51,508 bases of DNA, from NCBI GenBank assembly GCA_025350905.1, contig JANXWY010000407.1, positions 1 through 51,508 on the forward strand, in the 5' to 3' direction. The stretch is from Verrucomicrobiota bacterium (GTDB taxonomy: Bacteria > Verrucomicrobiota > Verrucomicrobiia > Limisphaerales > JADLHS01). This document shows positions 43,436-51,110 of this stretch, piece after piece. Positions within the stretch are counted from its first letter, which is position 1. Each line of letters opens with the position of its first letter. The notes beneath the pieces were generated by a model that was not told the DNA's origin, ran no database searches, and saw only the letters and a program-made list of their open reading frames with translations. The position numbers and the translations under genes are program-made.

Positions 43436-43710
43436 GTATGGAGAAGCCTTAAATTAAGCATCGCCGCACCGAGGTGGAACCGGTTATGGCTCTCCGCTGT
43501 CCGCGAGGTTCATTGAGAACGACAACCCAAAATTGGCCCCGGCGCAAGTCGCTTGCAAGTCCGCTGCATTCTGTTAATTCTGCCCCTGAGCCGAGACCGC
43601 GGGCGGGGGAACAATACTTGCGGGATTTTCGTGACCTCGGGGTAAGCACCACCGAGACGCGCTCTCGAAGCGCCCTAAACAAACAACAAAACCAACAAAG
43701 AACTGACATT

Positions 43711-44010
43711 ATGAAACTATTCAATCGAACCAATAGCCTCCTCGCCGGCGCCGGAATGACGCTCGCCTTGCTGGCGCTGACCTCCCCGGCCCTGGCCGAA
43801 GATAAGAAAACCGACAAGCCGAAGCCCTACACACTGGACAAGTGCATCGTCTCCGACGAGAAACTCGGCGAGATGGGCAAGCCGTTTGTCTTCACCTACG
43901 AAGGCCAGGAAATCAAACTGTGCTGCAAATCCTGCCAGAAAGATTTCAAGAAAGAACCGGCCAAGTATATCAAGAAACTCGCCGACGCCGGGAAAACGAA
44001 CAAGAAGTGA
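43711..44010 (+). CDS. Exported metal-binding protein (YHS/TRASH-like)
   Basis: 99 residues. A signal peptide (NSLLAGAGMTLALLALTSPALA) is followed by a Lys-rich linker and a short domain: DKCIVSDEKLGEMGKPFVFTYEGQEIKLCCKSCQKDFKKEP. The single Cys, then Cys-Cys-x-x-Cys and the C-x-x-x-F-x-x-x-P ending are the pattern of YHS/TRASH-type zinc-finger-like domains that bind soft metals such as copper. A high Lys content follows. It lies upstream of the Cus-type efflux genes on the same strand and may deliver or buffer metal in the periplasm (inference). Confidence 0.82.
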   Translation: MKLFNRTNSLLAGAGMTLALLALTSPALAEDKKTDKPKPYTLDKCIVSDEKLGEMGKPFVFTYEGQEIKLCCKSCQKDFKKEPAKYIKKLADAGKTNKK

Positions 44011-44407: not shown

Positions 44408-44492
44408 TTCTGCCTGGTTAAACACCCGAAGTGTGTACCGCGCTGTGGTACACCTGTGGCTCCGTGTTTTGCGTTGGGGAAGAATCGTGATT

Positions 44493-45812
44493 ATGAAAAA
44501 AAATATTCGGTTGATGTTGTTTTTGCTGCTGGCGCGCACTGGCTGGAGCGCTGAACCCCTGTCGACCAACGGCGTGGTCGTCACGCCGGAATTCGTGAAT
44601 CAGCTCGCCGAGGAAATGCGCGAACAGAATCCCGCCTTGCAGGCGGCCCGCGCCCGCACCAATGCCGCCGCAGCGAGCGTGGCCGCCGTGCGCAACTGGG
44701 AGGACCCCATGTTCATGCTCGGCGGCATGGTTGCCGACAAGGAAATGCGTGCCAACGATGGCGACATCCTCTATGGGGTGGAGCAGAAATTGCCGCTCTT
44801 CGGCCGGCCGGGCCTTGCGCGCAAGGTTGCCCTCGCGGAATCCGACGTCGCGGTGTCGAAAGAGAATGCCGAATTCCAGGTGCGCCGCGTCGAACTGGCG
44901 GTCGCCCTGTTCCGGACGGCGCTGGCGAATCGGACCGTACTTATCGGCGAACAGGATTTGGGCTGGCTCGACACCGTGGTTGCGGCGTTGGAAGCCCGGT
45001 ATCGTTCCGGAGCAGCTTCCCTGGTCGAGTGGACGCAGGCTCAGAACGAACGCTCCAAACGGACGGCGCAATTGCAGACCGACCGGGACCAGCTCACCCA
45101 GCAACACATTGTTCTCAATCGCCGGCTCGGCCGCAGCCTGCTGCAACGCTGGCCCGATCTGGAACTGCCTGCCGTGGCCGAAGCGGTGCGTTTCAGTCCG
45201 ACGCTGGTGAATTTTGCCACCCGATACGAACCGCGGCTACACACGCTCCATGAGGAGGCCCGCGCCGCGCGGGCGATGGCCGAGTTGACCCGGCGCGAGC
45301 GGCTTCCCGAAGTCAGTGCCGGCCTGCTGGCGCGCAATTACAGCGGCACTGGCGAATTCCGGCAGGGCGAGGTCGTGCTCCGCCTGAGCCTGCCGTGGTT
45401 CAACTCGGGCAGCTATCGCAGCGCCACCCGGCGCGACGAGGCGCGGGCCAAAGCCGCGGAACTGGACGCCGTGGACTACGCCGCCAGCTTGCGCGAGGAG
45501 GTTCATGGGCTAACGGTGAAAATCGCCGCCGCGCGACGTGAGGCGTTGGTGTACCGCGATGAGATCATTCCCCGAAGCGAAACCGCGATCGAAAGTGCGC
45601 GCGCGGCGTGGGAATCCGGTCGCGGCATGTTCCGCGATGTGCTCGAAGCGCGGCGCATGCTTTTCGAAGCGCGCTTGATGAATGCCCGTGCGGTCGCTGA
45701 ACAATACGAAATGCTGTCCGACCTCGCCCTCTGCTGCGGGCTCGGTGATCTGGAAGCGTTGAAAATGCTCGAAGACAAATTGAAAGCCGAACCGGGAGCA
45801 ACCCAACCATGA
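44493..45812 (+). CDS. TolC-family outer-membrane efflux protein (CusC-like)
   Basis: 439 residues. Signal peptide RLMLFLLLARTGWSAE, then two OEP repeats of long helices: AEEMREQNPALQAARARTNAAAASVAAVRNWEDPMF and DILYGVEQKLPLFGRPGLARKVALAE in the first, RLHTLHEEARAARAMAELTRRERLPEVSAGL and GEVVLRLSLPWFNSGSYRSATRRDEARAKA in the second. Together with the adaptor and pump genes downstream it forms a tripartite channel exporting metal ions across the outer membrane. The ATG at 44493 begins the signal peptide. It overlaps cusB by 4 bp (ATGA at 45809). Confidence 0.9.
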   Translation: MKKNIRLMLFLLLARTGWSAEPLSTNGVVVTPEFVNQLAEEMREQNPALQAARARTNAAAASVAAVRNWEDPMFMLGGMVADKEMRANDGDILYGVEQKLPLFGRPGLARKVALAESDVAVSKENAEFQVRRVELAVALFRTALANRTVLIGEQDLGWLDTVVAALEARYRSGAASLVEWTQAQNERSKRTAQLQTDRDQLTQQHIVLNRRLGRSLLQRWPDLELPAVAEAVRFSPTLVNFATRYEPRLHTLHEEARAARAMAELTRRERLPEVSAGLLARNYSGTGEFRQGEVVLRLSLPWFNSGSYRSATRRDEARAKAAELDAVDYAASLREEVHGLTVKIAAARREALVYRDEIIPRSETAIESARAAWESGRGMFRDVLEARRMLFEARLMNARAVAEQYEMLSDLALCCGLGDLEALKMLEDKLKAEPGATQP

Positions 45813-47527
45813 AAACGAAATCAAATCGGACCCGGGCGCTGTCCTGCATTCTGGCGGCGCTTATGGCGGGCTGCTTCGGCGGCTGCGGCAAGCCGGGATC
45901 GTCCGCCACCGCCGTCGGTGGGAAGGAGCGCAAAGTTCTCTATTACCAAAGCGCGATGCATCCATGGATCAAGTCCGATAAACCCGGACGCTGCACGATT
46001 TGCGGCATGGAACTCACGCCGGTTTACGAAGGCGAGGCCGGTCTCGACCTGACGGGCGATTCCTTACCGCTTTCCCCATCGACCATCCGCGTGTTGAATG
46101 TGCAAACTGCGGAAGCGCAGCTGCGGCCGCTCACCAAGACGCTCCTGGTTTCGGGAACCATCGACGATGATGACTCGCGACATCGCGTCCTGTCGGCCTA
46201 TCTCCCCGGGCGCATCGAGACGCTGCACGTGAGCTTTGTCGGCGCCGAGGTGAAGCAAGGCGAGGCGCTGGCCGAGTTTTACAGCCCCGCATTGCTGCAG
46301 GCCGAACGCGAGTACCGCCTGCTCGCCGGCCCGGATCAGGCCGATCTGCGAGTCGCGAGCGCCTCGCGTTTGCGCCAGATGGGATTGACGCCCGAGCAAA
46401 TCGCCGCGCTTGCGACGAAATCCCCCGAAGCCCTGACCTCCCAAATACTCGCGCCCATCAGCGGCACGGTCGTGGAGAAAAAAGTTTATGCCGGCCAGTA
46501 CGTGCAGGAAGGCGAGAAACTGTTCGAACTCGCGGATTTTTCGACGATGTGGTTTCAATTCCGCGCCTACGAACAGGACCTGCCGTTCATCCAACTCGGC
46601 CTGACGGTGGACGTCACGACGCCTTCCCTCCCCGGAAAAACATTTACCGGCAAGATCAGCTTCATTGATCCCAATTTTGATGAAGTCACGCGTTCAACCA
46701 AGGTGCGCGTCGAGCTGGGCAACCCGTTGGTGGACCACCACCGCCGGCTGCTGCATCGGCTCTACGCGGAAGGCAACGTACAATTGGACGCAGCCAAGGT
46801 GCTCACCGTGCCCCGCAGCGCCGTCCTCCAGACCGGCGCGGAAGCCGTCGCCTACGTCGAACAGGGCGGTGGCGCTTATGTTCGCCGGGTCCTCAAACTG
46901 GGTCGCCGTGGCGACCACTTCATCGAAGTGCAGGACGGACTCGCCGCCGGCGAAAAAGTCGTGGTGAATGGTAACCTGCTGATGGATGGTCAGGCGGAAA
47001 TGAATCGTTCGTTTGCGGCGCCCGCCGAAATGACCCCGGCCACAAACACCCTTCCGGCGGACTTGCCGCCGCTGACCGAAACCCAGCATAGAGCCGTCGA
47101 AGATTTTTTCCTGGTGGCGGATGCGGTTACGGCGGCGTTGGCGGCGGATAATTTGGAAAAATTCAACGCGCAAGCGGCAATTACCCACGACGCGGCCGGC
47201 AAACTGTTCACGTCCTTCGCGGGCAGCGAAAGCTGGCAAGCGCGCGCCAAGGAAGTTGAAGCCGCCTCGCATCTGGCCAAAGTCCACGATCTCAAAGAAG
47301 CCCGCCGCGCATTTTATCCCTTCAGCATGGCTGCCGTTGCCCTCGCCCAGGCGGCCCGGCGAGCGGGCAACGAATTCCCGTCCCTTAAAATCTTTCGTTG
47401 CCCGATGACCAAGGATGCGTTCCCGGGCGCCGCCAGCCGGGGGGAATGGATTCAACTGCGCCCGGAGATTCGCAATCCTTGGTTTGGCGCGGAGATGCTG
47501 GATTGTGGTTCGGAGGTGAAGCCATGA
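45809..47527 (+). CDS. cusB: CusB-like periplasmic adaptor lipoprotein with heavy-metal-binding and extra C-terminal domain
   Basis: 572 residues, longer than typical adaptors (about 400). Lipoprotein signal with lipobox ending at Cys22 (LAALMAGC). A heavy-metal-binding domain follows (about 43-74: YYQSAMHPWIKSDKPG, RCTICGMELTPVY). The membrane-fusion part comes next: beta-barrel and lipoyl halves (YLPGRIETLHVSFVGAEVKQGEALAEFYSPAL, SQILAPISGTVVEKKVYAGQYVQEGEKLFELAD) and FIDPNFDEVTRSTKVRVEL. After residue about 425 a helical DUF3347-like domain (VEDFFLVADAVTAALAADNLEKF) and a CPMTKDAFPGAASRG segment, probably also metal-binding, are added. It passes metal to the RND pump. It is coupled by ATGA to the genes on both sides. 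Confidence 0.93.
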   Translation: MKTKSNRTRALSCILAALMAGCFGGCGKPGSSATAVGGKERKVLYYQSAMHPWIKSDKPGRCTICGMELTPVYEGEAGLDLTGDSLPLSPSTIRVLNVQTAEAQLRPLTKTLLVSGTIDDDDSRHRVLSAYLPGRIETLHVSFVGAEVKQGEALAEFYSPALLQAEREYRLLAGPDQADLRVASASRLRQMGLTPEQIAALATKSPEALTSQILAPISGTVVEKKVYAGQYVQEGEKLFELADFSTMWFQFRAYEQDLPFIQLGLTVDVTTPSLPGKTFTGKISFIDPNFDEVTRSTKVRVELGNPLVDHHRRLLHRLYAEGNVQLDAAKVLTVPRSAVLQTGAEAVAYVEQGGGAYVRRVLKLGRRGDHFIEVQDGLAAGEKVVVNGNLLMDGQAEMNRSFAAPAEMTPATNTLPADLPPLTETQHRAVEDFFLVADAVTAALAADNLEKFNAQAAITHDAAGKLFTSFAGSESWQARAKEVEAASHLAKVHDLKEARRAFYPFSMAAVALAQAARRAGNEFPSLKIFRCPMTKDAFPGAASRGEWIQLRPEIRNPWFGAEMLDCGSEVKP

Positions 47528-47616
47528 ACCCCGAAAACGCTGTGGACCAACTTTTGTTGCCTATGCAGCAAAAGTTTGTCGCGGGAATCAAGGAACGCTC
47601 GGAGGTGTTCCCATGA
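47524..47616 (+). CDS. 30-residue micro-ORF between cusB and cusA, ATGA-coupled at both ends
   Basis: The ATG at 47524 overlaps the cusB stop (ATGA), and the TGA at 47614-47616 overlaps the cusA start (ATGA at 47613). A strong ribosome-binding site GGAGGTG lies 5 bp before this ATG (47512-47518), and the same site lies 5 bp before cusA (47601-47607). The product begins MNPENAVDQLLLPMQQKF and ends with SEVFP; it is amphipathic, with no signal or membrane segment. It may be a coupling peptide that keeps ribosomes loading onto cusA, or a small pump subunit. Its edges carry an 18-bp direct repeat, so it may also be a chance product of a duplication. Confidence 0.6.
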   Translation: MNPENAVDQLLLPMQQKFVAGIKERSEVFP

Positions 47617-50600
47617 TCACCCGCCTTATTGAATGGAGTCTGAAGAATCGCTTCCTCGTGCTCTGCGGCGCGCTGATGTTGATCGTCCTCGGCGTGCGCG
47701 CCGTCTTCCGCACGCCGGTGGATGCGATTCCGGACCTAACGGAAAACCAGGTGCTGGTTTATGCCGACTGGATGGGGCGCAGCCCGCGGGAAGTGGAGGA
47801 CCAGGTCACGTTTCCGCTCTCGACCGGCTTGCAAGGTCTGGCCGGCGTCAAGGATGTGCGGGCGACTTCGATGTTCGGCTTCTCGCTCCTCACGCTCATC
47901 TTCGAGGAAAACGTGGACCCCTACTTCGCCCGGACCCGCGTGTTGGAGCGGTTGAATTATCTCCAGGCAGCGATGCCCGAAGGCGTAAAGCCGCAACTCG
48001 GTCCGGACGCCACCGGTCTGGGTTGGGTCTATCAATACTACCTGCACGTGGACCCCGCGAAATCGCCGGACGGGGGTTACGACCTCGGTAAGCTTCGCGC
48101 GACGCAGGATTGGTTTGTTCGGTATCAACTCGCCAGCGTGCCGGGCGTGGCGGAAGTCGCCAGCATTGGCGGGTTCGTGAAGCAATATCAAATCGAACTT
48201 TCTTCCAGCAAAATGCGCGCGGTGAACGTCACCCTCGGCGAAGTGCTCTCCGCCGTCCAGGATGCCAACCTCAACGTTGGCGGCAAGGTCATCGAGGAAA
48301 ATGGCGCCGAGTTCGTGCTGCGCGGCGAGGGCCTGATCGAAAGCATCGACGACTTGGAACTCATCGCCGTGAAAGCGGCGGGCGGCACGCCGATCTATCT
48401 GCGCGACCTGGCGACGGTTCAGATCGGCGGCGATTTCCGACGCGGGGCGCTTGACCTCAACGGCGCGGAGGCGGTGGGCGGAACGGTCGTGATGCGCACC
48501 GGCGAGAATGCGAAGGCCGTCATCGAGCGCGTGAAGGCGAAAATCGCGAAAATCGCGCCGAGCCTGCCGCCGGGCATTTCCATCCGGCCGTTTTACGATC
48601 GCAGCACGCTCATCGACCGCACGATTGACACCCTCAAGCATGCGCTGCTCGAGGAAATCATCCTCGTGACGCTCGCGCACATCATTTTCCTGTGGCACTT
48701 CCGCAGCATCCTCATCGTCACCCTGCCGCTCCCCATTTCCATTTTGATTTCGTTCCTGCTCATGAAGGAATTCGGCATCACGAGCAACATCATGTCGCTG
48801 ACCGGCATCGCCATCGCCATCGGCGTGCTGGTGGATGCGGCGATTGTGGTGACGGAGAATGTGATTCGACACTGCGAGCAGGCGGAGGAGGAGAAACGGA
48901 AGAAGTATTCAGTATTCAGTGTTCAGCGTTCAACACCGGGAGGCGCCGACTCAGCAGCACTGAACACTGACGCTCTGACAACTAATCCATCTCCCCGCCT
49001 GACCGCAGCGGAGACCTTGGAAGTGACTTTGATTGCCTGCAAGCAAGTTGGCCGTCCGATTTTCTTTGCCATGGCCATCATCATCCTCGCCTTTGTGCCG
49101 GTGTTCGCGCTCACGGGGCAGGAAGGCAAGTTGTTCCATCCGTTGGCCTGGACGAAGACCTTTGCGATGGTGGGTTCGACGCTGCTTGCGGTCACGTTGG
49201 TGCCGGTGTTGTGCAGCCTGCTGGTGCGTGGACCGTTTCACAGCGAAGACAAGAATCTGGTGATGCGGTTGCTGCTCAAGATTTATGATCCCGTGCTGAA
49301 CTGGGCCTTGCGGCATCGCAAAACCGTCCTCGGCGCGGCGGCGACGCTGCTGGCGTTGGCGTTGCTCACGGCGTTCGGCTTGCCGCGCGTTTGGGTGAAG
49401 ACGATGCGTGATGCCGGTTGGCCGAATATGGCGAATCTGGTCCAGGGCTTCGGCAAGGAATTCATGCCGCCGCTCAACGAAGGCAGTTTGCTCTACATGC
49501 CCGTGATGCTGCCAAAGACCGGGCTCGCCGAAATCCAACGGGTGATGGCGTGGCAGGACCAGGTGTTGGCGACCGTGCCGGAGATCGAAACCGTCGCGGG
49601 CAAGGCGGGCCGCTTCGAGACGCCCACGGATCCGGCGCCGACCGAAATGTTGGAAACCACGATCACGCTGAGGCCAGAATGGATTCCCACGAATCGCACC
49701 GTGCTCGGCTTCATCAAAATCCCGCGCGTCATTCGCAACCCCGCATGGCGCGCGGGCATGACCGTCGAGAAACTGAAAGCCGAACTCAATGAAAGGATGA
49801 AGGTGGTGCCAGGTTACGTGCCGGCGTTTTTGCAGCCGATTGAAAACCGGATCCTCATGCTCTACACCGGCATCCGTGCCCAGGTGGGTGTGAAGATTTA
49901 CGGCGACAATCTGGAGGCGCTCCAGCGCAAAGCGTACGAGGTTGAGGCCGTGGTGAAGCAAATTCCAGGGGCCTCGGGCGTGTCGCCGTCGCGGGTGCAA
50001 GGCAAACCTTATCTGAATGTAAAGGTGGATCGCCGGGCCCTGGCGCGTTACGGCTTGAGCGCTCGGGCCGTGCTCGACGCGGTGGAAGTGGCCATTGGCG
50101 GCAAGAATGTGAGTGTGACCATCGAAGGGCGCGAGCGGTTTCCAATTCAGGTCCGGCTCGAACGCGGCGAGCGCGACGACATCGAGAAGCTGGGCAGTAT
50201 CCTGATCGCGGCGCCAAACGCGATGAGCGGGGGGGCAAAGGAAGCCGCGCCGAGCGGGGGCGCTGGTGGAGTCGGCGGCATGGGCGGAGGGGTAGCCAGC
50301 CCGGCCGCAAGTTCAGCGGGTGCGAGCGGAGGCAACCCTGCGCTCACTTACATCCCGCTGGCGATGGTGGCCAAGCTCACGCGCGAAATTGGCGCAAACG
50401 AAATCGCCAGCGAGAACGGCCGTTTACGCGCTTACGTGCAGGCCAATGTACAAGACCGCGACCTGGGCGGATTCGTGAGCGCCGTCGAGACGGCGATTCA
50501 GAAACTGGATTGGGGCAACATGACCTACCAGATGACCGGCGAATACGAGAACCAGCGGCGGTTCACCAAGACGATGCAGGTCGTGTTCCCGGCCGTGCTG

Positions 50601-51110
50601 CTGATCATTTTTATGATGCTCTACCTGGTTTATCACAGCGCCTTGGAGGCCGCGCATGTTTTGCTGGCGGTGCCCTTCGCCCTGAGTGGCGGCGTGTTTC
50701 TGCAAAAAATGCTGGGTTACAACTTCAACGGTGCCGTGTGGGTCGGCTATATCGCGCTGTTCGGTACGGCGGTACAAACCGGCGTGGTGATGGTGGTCTA
50801 TCTCGAAGAGATGGTGAAAAAGCGCATGGCCGAACGCGGCAACGCCTTCAACGCCGCCGATCTGGTTCAGGCTGTGAAGGACGGCGCGCGGCTGCGATTG
50901 CGGCCAAAGGTGATGACCGTGGCGACCATCGTGGCGAGCCTGCTGCCGATCATGTGGAGTCATCGGCAAGGCGCGGAAGTCATGAAGCCGCTCGCGACGC
51001 CGGTCATTGGCGGCATGTTGAGCAGCTTGATTCACATCTTGATTGTGACGCCGGTGATTTTCTGCTGGCTGCGCGAACGGGAGTTGAAGCAGCAAACCAG
51101 GGTGGAATAA
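47613..51110 (+). CDS. cusA: CusA-like heavy-metal RND efflux pump
   Basis: 1165 residues, some 100 longer than typical CusA/CzcA (about 1040-1050). Signatures: a first helix FLVLCGALMLIVLGVRAVFRTPVDAIPDLTENQVLVYADWMGRSPREVEDQVTFPLSTGLQGL in outline, PGVAEVASIGGFVKQYQI, the proton-relay helix ITSNIMSLTGIAIAIGVLVDAAIVVTENVI with its conserved Asp, and FGTAVQTGVVMVVYLEEMV in the C-terminal half. Two additions explain the extra length: residues about 432-463 derive from a genomic repeat, and residues about 870-912 are a Gly/Ala/Ser-rich stretch in the second porter region. The upstream locus with metal-binding proteins points to Cu(I)/Ag(I), though another divalent cation is possible. Confidence 0.93.
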   Translation: MITRLIEWSLKNRFLVLCGALMLIVLGVRAVFRTPVDAIPDLTENQVLVYADWMGRSPREVEDQVTFPLSTGLQGLAGVKDVRATSMFGFSLLTLIFEENVDPYFARTRVLERLNYLQAAMPEGVKPQLGPDATGLGWVYQYYLHVDPAKSPDGGYDLGKLRATQDWFVRYQLASVPGVAEVASIGGFVKQYQIELSSSKMRAVNVTLGEVLSAVQDANLNVGGKVIEENGAEFVLRGEGLIESIDDLELIAVKAAGGTPIYLRDLATVQIGGDFRRGALDLNGAEAVGGTVVMRTGENAKAVIERVKAKIAKIAPSLPPGISIRPFYDRSTLIDRTIDTLKHALLEEIILVTLAHIIFLWHFRSILIVTLPLPISILISFLLMKEFGITSNIMSLTGIAIAIGVLVDAAIVVTENVIRHCEQAEEEKRKKYSVFSVQRSTPGGADSAALNTDALTTNPSPRLTAAETLEVTLIACKQVGRPIFFAMAIIILAFVPVFALTGQEGKLFHPLAWTKTFAMVGSTLLAVTLVPVLCSLLVRGPFHSEDKNLVMRLLLKIYDPVLNWALRHRKTVLGAAATLLALALLTAFGLPRVWVKTMRDAGWPNMANLVQGFGKEFMPPLNEGSLLYMPVMLPKTGLAEIQRVMAWQDQVLATVPEIETVAGKAGRFETPTDPAPTEMLETTITLRPEWIPTNRTVLGFIKIPRVIRNPAWRAGMTVEKLKAELNERMKVVPGYVPAFLQPIENRILMLYTGIRAQVGVKIYGDNLEALQRKAYEVEAVVKQIPGASGVSPSRVQGKPYLNVKVDRRALARYGLSARAVLDAVEVAIGGKNVSVTIEGRERFPIQVRLERGERDDIEKLGSILIAAPNAMSGGAKEAAPSGGAGGVGGMGGGVASPAASSAGASGGNPALTYIPLAMVAKLTREIGANEIASENGRLRAYVQANVQDRDLGGFVSAVETAIQKLDWGNMTYQMTGEYENQRRFTKTMQVVFPAVLLIIFMMLYLVYHSALEAAHVLLAVPFALSGGVFLQKMLGYNFNGAVWVGYIALFGTAVQTGVVMVVYLEEMVKKRMAERGNAFNAADLVQAVKDGARLRLRPKVMTVATIVASLLPIMWSHRQGAEVMKPLATPVIGGMLSSLIHILIVTPVIFCWLRERELKQQTRVE
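48906..48970 (+). repeat. Inverted repeat embedded in frame within cusA
   Basis: TCAGTGTTCAG (48917-48927) and CTGAACACTGA (48960-48970) are a perfect 11-bp inverted pair, preceded by the direct motif TATTCAGTATTCAG. The block reads as a low-complexity peptide (YSVFSVQRSTPGG...) between the helix bearing the conserved Asp and the next helix. Confidence 0.7.

Follow-up and report, generated by a model that had tools for sequence, protein, structure and literature searches.

Introduction

In the bicistronic design, a short ORF carries the Shine–Dalgarno (SD) sequence of the next gene, ends in an overlap with the start of that gene and opens the RNA. Several described systems combine short ORFs or short repeats with the genes around them in other ways. 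The mycobacterial MIRU is an apparently mobile repeat that inserts at a start codon and brings an internal ORF, coupled with a spacing of −4 nt (Supply et al., 1997, as cited in PMC12548453). The same review mentions short ORFs that deliver ribosomes, and refers to some studies in which coupling was unchanged up to +25 nt, with a gradual effect from +50 to +850 nt (PMC12548453); in one study, gaps of about 20 nt almost abolished termination–reinitiation coupling (PMC10666635). In Salmonella, the small ORF mgtQ lies between mgtC and mgtB, where it promotes translation of the downstream transporter gene and is overlapped by stem-loops (PMC8092293). Lastly, the CGTC-tagged REPs, with stems of 8–9 bp and loops of 4–5 nt, apparently have no dedicated transposase (PMC3733652).

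Here, we describe a junction between two genes of a verrucomicrobial heavy-metal efflux operon, cusB and cusA, which are separated by a 30-codon micro-ORF overlapping both. We compare this junction with those of relatives, trace the repeat within it through the order, and discuss how the resulting arrangement relates to the systems above.

Architecture of the cusB–cusA junction

The window, i.e. the whole 51,508-nt stretch of DNA that was analyzed, contains the following features around the junction:

44433–45812, + strand: outer-membrane factor gene (cusC-like) with a putative start; open reading frame, Pfam OEP 1.3e-35
45809–47527, + strand: cusB, periplasmic adaptor, 572 aa, with SD1 in its last codons; Pfam HlyD_D23 2.6e-54 and HMBD 2.5e-9
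47510–47527, + strand: 18-mer copy 1, TCGGAGGTGAAGCCATGA, with SD1 at 47512–47518, the micro-ORF start at 47524 and the cusB stop at 47525–47527
47524–47616, + strand: micro-ORF (relay ORF) of 30 codons plus stop, peptide MNPENAVDQLLLPMQQKFVAGIKERSEVFP, with an ATGA overlap at either end
47545–47580, no strand: near-palindrome of 36 nt with 15/18 pairs, degenerate member of a dispersed family
47592–47611, + strand: predicted 8-bp hairpin over part of SD2, its 3′ arm including the TTC specific to copy 2
47599–47616, + strand: 18-mer copy 2, TCGGAGGTGTTCCCATGA, with SD2 at 47601–47607, the cusA start at 47613 and the micro-ORF stop at 47614–47616
47613–51110, + strand: cusA, heavy-metal efflux RND pump, 1165 aa; TIGR00914 (CusA/CzcA) 976 bits against a cutoff of 701, Pfam ACR_tran

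The stop of the cusC-like gene and the start of cusB share 4 nt, and CusB scores above the cutoff of the NCBIfam family RND_mfp. A preliminary description of this DNA had reported an 18-bp direct repeat with 15/18 identity and a spacing of 89 bp, a GGAGGTG 5 nt upstream of an ATG in each 18-mer, and a 30-codon frame joined by ATGA to cusB and to cusA; the repeat and its spacing are exact, and the SD motifs and the frame were confirmed. At either end of the micro-ORF, co-directed frames thus share an NTGA stop–start overlap. That description had overlooked two features, namely the near-palindrome at 47545–47580, GACCAACTTTTGTTGC CTAT GCAGCAAAAGTTTGTC, whose 15 of 18 pairs are the top count anywhere in the 51.5-kb window, and the hairpin at 47592–47611, which covers part of the second SD. 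When a random insert of 40–140 nt is placed between both 18-mers, an open ATGA–ORF–ATGA arises by chance in 9.2% of trials; therefore, the window alone proves little.

Two stretches of CusA, at which alignments to many relatives break, were noted separately. One is an extra segment of about 30 residues (KKYSVFSVQRSTPGG..., residues about 428–461, window 48894–48993), whose DNA holds TATTCAGTGTTCAGC-like repeats, so that an in-frame repeat insertion is possible. The other is rich in Gly, Ala and Ser (residues about 870–908, window 50220–50340).

Junctions in relatives and the ancestral state

We examined 193 loci from Verrucomicrobiota, beyond a single order, which yielded 186 junctions (seven loci gave none) and, after duplicate removal, 132 unique ones. 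A −4 overlap joins cusB and cusA in 57 of these. The nearest relative of the operon, L063 (MAG SJ485), has its junction and one tested 300-mer in common with G004, which belongs to the window's genus; compared with the window, the two stand at 70% for CusB and 92% for the start of CusA. Their junction, TTCGGAGGTGAAGCCGTGATCACG, is a direct GTGA overlap of cusB and cusA, with the same SD as in the window inside the cusB tail. Junctions were seen in two of the five other genomes of the genus, the direct overlap of G004 and an 11-nt gap in G003, and the same family also includes gaps of 187 nt (G006) and 334 nt (G011). The likeliest ancestral state would be a direct overlap, to which the window's lineage would have added 89 bp. 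The insert lies at an NTGA junction for which an empty site is known (GTGA in L063/G004), and its ORF overlaps both neighbors by 4 nt; both are traits of a MIRU-like insertion. The preliminary description had considered that a duplication added these 89 bp and created a new translated peptide: an insertion that made a new translatable frame agrees with the comparison, but a plain duplication accounts for only part of it, as the insert has a dispersed palindrome copy in its middle.

The peptide itself appears confined to the window's own genome among those searched. With tblastn, 57 genomes returned the window itself and seven weak places (best E 0.03), four of which (G001:C228, G049:C77, G054:C35 and G054:C6) are palindrome copies, and at E 0.01 the own genome was the only one of 387 genomes of the phylum with a match. 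There is no NCBIfam match, and the single Pfam match is far under the cutoff (E 0.18). The peptide is free of Cys and His, its middle part is encoded by the repeat, and its GC content by codon position (0.60/0.27/0.67) is like that of cusB and cusA, over 30 codons only. Since, among the genomes searched, the peptide is found in its own only and a relative of the same genus has a direct junction, the functional small component that had been proposed is not supported; relatives with a direct NTGA overlap and no micro-ORF, such as G004 and the other cases among the 57, speak against a conserved small protein as well. Selection on the peptide was also sought in two pairs of relay ORFs of other loci (see below). 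The pair L111 and L122 gave no sign of it, as none of their nine nucleotide differences falls on a third codon position; the pair L066 and L069, with 12 differences (3, 3 and 6 by codon position), points neither way.

A dispersed palindrome at the core of the insert

Using the insert as a blastn query, we found matches in 24 of the 320 genomes of the order, the own genome included; the matches listed lie over the hairpin, except for one at its edge in G141. The consensus of the copies, GACGAACTTTTGTTGCATATGCAACAAAAGTTCGTC, read by eye, is a perfect palindrome with no stop triplet in any frame. Its 26-nt core, at up to three mismatches, occurs in 32/320 genomes (own included), and a reversed control in none. 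G054 carries 72 copies of a 24-nt core (up to two mismatches), with at least 10 pairs spaced 76 bp apart; the own genome holds two palindrome copies, that of the window and one at C475:11305. Membership in a dispersed family is a further trait that the insert shares with a MIRU-like insertion, although it is the palindrome that is dispersed, not the whole insert: the own assembly contains no second copy of the latter, which matched elsewhere only weakly at two short stretches (E 0.5 and 3.4), and a plasmid search with the insert gave no match.

Copies of the palindrome do not prefer gene overlaps, where three of 85 distinct copies lie, including the window's and two that are candidates. Flanking direct repeats are near expectation over 83 copies (seven at a score of at least 8 vs 6.6 expected), and a family-wide target-site duplication was rejected for lengths of about 8 nt or more. 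At scores of at least 10, which about 1% of cross-paired flanks of these copies reach, there are four cases vs 0.8 expected, namely the window, with 10.5, and three that seem to belong to a different repeat family. By eye, these three strongest cases (L235, L230 and L145) resemble a family with CCATGAACC/GGTTCATGG units. Together with L236, all in genus g19, they point to an apparent second dispersed family of GGTTCATGG...CCATGAACC units, with the palindrome inserted into its arrays.

Palindromes flank a PaaX-like gene

Several copies adjoin a gene whose 261-aa product carries two PaaX domains, the central Cas2-like one (PF20803, E 1e-18) and the C-terminal one. At E 1e-15 or better, this PaaX-like gene is present in 52 of the 320 genomes; it occurs in 26 of the 32 palindrome genomes vs 26 of the 288 others (Fisher p 2e-18, kinship uncorrected). 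We analyzed 30 PaaX-like loci, calling a palindrome at 14 or more of 18 pairs if centered up to 160 nt before the start or up to 150 nt after the stop. Palindromes were found upstream of the start in 22/29 and downstream of the stop in 23/30 cases, on both sides at 19 loci and on at least one side at 26; random 150-nt windows of cus loci, a control that is not matched for being intergenic, reached the threshold in 1/304. Usually, the upstream palindrome ends 32–39 nt ahead of the start, and the downstream one begins at most about 8 nt away from the stop; some loci deviate. In the 20 elements with both palindromes, core identity is 88% within an element vs 58% between elements, and over 26 elements palindrome identity correlates with protein identity (Mantel 0.75, 0/2000 permutations), a correlation that linkage and common descent also predict.

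The PaaX-like gene of the own genome (G000:C143:44871–45644; L195, L225) is flanked by two palindromes of another type, with a ATTGTCCCACGTGGGACAAT core, which at up to three mismatches occurs only at this gene; the window's copy therefore belongs to another lineage. That lineage adjoins an intact PaaX-like gene within the same genus (G001:C228). Partial PaaX-like matches lie beside palindromes in G010, G013, G020, G085 and G253, some of them maybe owing to contig ends or divergence, and together with the patchy distribution they suggest mobility. We found no description of a PaaX–palindrome pairing, or of a PaaX mobile element, in the accessible part of the open-licence PMC literature. Tentatively, we propose that the PaaX-like/Cas2-like proteins and their flanking near-perfect palindromes form an undescribed mobile or mobilizing system, an analog of RAYT/REP, whose parts would co-diverge and whose palindromes would scatter solo or paired; copies landing in operon overlaps would survive if they leave a translatable bridge, and the cus micro-ORF would be one such relay ORF.

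Relay frames in other cusB–cusA spacers

An excess of relay frames was first noticed in 79 junctions, and the collection on which it was afterwards tested included these. The first set, in which it was noticed, comprises the 80 best CusB matches and L042, with their duplicates; there, a relay frame occurs in 9 of 11 NTGA junctions (null mean 1.85, 0/1000). Sixteen new spacers gave 2 of 11 (null 1.31, 384/1000, not significant), and other RND pumps, represented by 36 junctions from 52 tried (16 had no clear start), gave 1 of 7 (null 0.49, 430/1000, not significant). Overall, strict relays make up 11 of 22 NTGA junctions (null 3.1, 0/2000; indel null 4.8, 3/2000), or 8 of 16 when the L066 clade and a group with 352-nt spacers are collapsed (null 2.4, 2/2000; indel null 3.8, 30/2000). 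Among the 35 spacers of 15–420 nt, 23 have a length of 1 mod 3, four of these from the 352-nt group, and stops take up 19/1742 codons in the relay phase vs 39/1770 and 39/1765 in the other phases. Outside the first junction set, the data do not support the idea that RND operons generally have a relay ORF; the pattern is suggestive in near relatives and not general.

In the first set, the relays of L042, L064, L109/L045, L111 and L128 span 64, 113, 45, 23 and 15 codons, and those of L066, L067, L069 and L098 span 13–14; in the later set, L038 has 55 and L320 has 9. As four of the nine first-set relays exceed 20 codons, they are not all mini-ORFs. By local alignment, the spacer sequences are unrelated, except for L042 with L064, which have a common repeat, and L066 with L069; L066, L067, L069 and L098 resemble one clade.

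The own genome has two further operons of this type. Its second cus operon (L343, G000:C465) carries a 21-codon ATGA–ORF–ATGA, MTAIDHGTGPIHWRSPGFRNL, between the adaptor and pump genes; unrelated in sequence to that of the window, it is the sole relay among the NTGA junctions of the other RND set. The third pump operon (C273) has a 47-nt spacer and no strict relay.

Five of 17 spacers of 30–340 nt (L079, L096, L042, L064 and L109) contain strong inverted repeats (z −6 to −9 vs mononucleotide shuffles), as if the cusB–cusA junction repeatedly acquired palindromic repeats. The spacers of L043/L080 and L044/L118 contain a real-looking small gene, whose product is either rich in Cys (CDGACCKQGPEACAKCCGKDCASCCKK, by-eye translation) or, by eye, similar to that of the window's ORF upstream of cusC (43474–44010).

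Predicted RNA structure and Shine–Dalgarno strength

A 141-nt region around the junction folds with −53.5 kcal/mol (z −3.55), which 0 of 200 shuffles equaled. SD1 and SD2 have the same anti-SD energy, −10.8 each, and two equal SDs are an unusual feature of the window. The sole differences between the 18-mers lie in one triplet, AAG in copy 1 and TTC in copy 2, and this TTC completes a GGAAC/GTTCC stem. The opening cost of SD2 is 9.1 kcal/mol as found vs 3.7 with the AAG of copy 1, and TTC gives the highest cost among all 64 triplets. The folding model hence predicts that the AAG-to-TTC change puts a hairpin over the SD of cusA. Selection favoring relay dependence could account for the change, as could a template-switch mutation at a quasi-palindrome.

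Each of the 11 relay junctions keeps a strong SD at the relay start (median anti-SD energy −10.1). At the end of cusB, 5/11 NTGA junctions without a relay and 12/28 other spacers have one. Conversely, cusA is devoid of a strong SD in 8/11 relay junctions, 8/11 non-relay NTGA junctions and 25/28 other spacers. Because a cusA without an SD is equally common outside relays, only the retained SD at the relay start is telling.

Discussion

On balance, we lean toward a MIRU-like insertion whose new frame hands ribosomes on from cusB to cusA, which would be why it was tolerated. Comparison shows 89 bp more in this lineage at a 4-nt NTGA overlap whose SD sits in the last codons of cusB; a copy of the dispersed palindrome forms the center of the insert, with an imperfect copy of the ancestral junction on either side. 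In this way, cusB retained its stop and cusA an SD, and the ancestral start now opens a frame of 30 codons that runs into the ATGA of cusA. Having finished cusB, ribosomes would start again on the micro-ORF; in translating it, they would traverse the palindrome hairpin and unfold the one over SD2 before initiating once more on cusA. Since gaps of about 20 nt almost abolished coupling in one study (PMC10666635), such a bridge ORF would restore it after the insertion. The peptide would be a by-product, and it would be the open frame, as a relay or bridge ORF, that matters; through it, the inserted RNA would continue to be translated as well. Judged from the sequence, the coupling role that the preliminary description had raised is plausible, and the tiny frame probably keeps ribosomes moving between the pump genes rather than yielding a useful peptide.

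Alternatively, the insert may be neutral debris, tolerated as its second SD lets cusA start alone, with a frame that is open by luck and has no role. The cusA of the window, with its own strong SD, may indeed start without coupling; SD2 equals SD1 in strength, and a random insert has a 9.2% chance of an open frame. Moreover, the further junctions show no relay excess, some relatives have spacers of 47 to 827 nt that contain no strict relay, and because some studies saw coupling over longer gaps (PMC12548453), a bridge may be unneeded, which slightly lowers the odds of the relay. Nevertheless, 9 of 11 NTGA spacers in the first set carry a relay frame, as does the paralogous operon of the own genome, and SD2 is predicted to stay covered as long as ribosomes do not translate the frame; these points make this account unlikely, if still one to be reckoned with.

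The remaining explanations carry much less weight. The micro-ORF could be the leader of a sensing attenuator, in which metal- or stress-altered translation opens or closes cusA; two predicted hairpins and the z of −3.55 would suit such a device, for which mgtQ, as an intergenic small ORF promoting transporter translation, provides a published example (PMC8092293), but the micro-ORF is lineage-specific, with no relative showing conserved codons, and we deem the idea improbable. We are yet more skeptical of a 30-residue peptide that acts as a functional component of the pump: the resemblance of its codon-position GC to that of cusB and cusA, over just 30 codons, is set against tblastn results that are weak places in 57 relatives, four of them palindrome, a single genome in 387 of the phylum, no NCBIfam match, a Pfam E of 0.18, the absence of Cys and His and a repeat-encoded middle. 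Finally, hairpins and repeats are prone to error in the assembly of a metagenome bin, but cusB and cusA are each intact and arranged as expected, and the assembly contains no further copy of the whole insert, which makes an artefact highly improbable.

If the relay reading is true, operons would survive insertions into overlapping genes by rebuilding the junction as a bridge ORF that could vary in sequence but not in frame, and such ORFs could be misannotated as small proteins. The PaaX-like/Cas2-like family and its cognate palindromes look like a counterpart of REP/RAYT that is directly testable for DNA binding and mobility.

Comparison with known systems

Like a bicistronic design, the micro-ORF carries the SD of cusA and ends overlapping its start; unlike that design, it is natural and lies between two operon genes. 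With mgtQ, it has in common that it is a small intergenic ORF inside an operon, upstream of a transporter gene and overlapped by stem-loops, whereas mgtQ needs acidic codons (PMC8092293) and the micro-ORF has no demonstrable conserved codon.

The palindromes resemble REP/BIME sequences and their RAYTs in being short, dispersed, often paired and arranged around a single gene, but this gene is PaaX-like (PF20803) and not a tyrosine transposase. As the consensus also has, by eye, no GTAG, we do not class the family as REPs with a RAYT. In many copies, CGTC/TGTC-like ends and AA/TT near the stem base (by eye) recall the CGTC REPs, from which the palindrome differs in being nearly loop-free, with up to 18 pairs.

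By architecture, the closest precedent for the cus micro-ORF is MIRU. The two differ in that the cus insert comes from another phylum, that what is repeated in it is a palindrome of 36 nt with a link to a PaaX-like gene, and that palindrome copies are not systematically in overlaps (3/85, counting the window and two candidates). What they have in common is the arrangement itself: an insert at a start codon, with an internal ORF that overlaps its neighbor by −4 nt.
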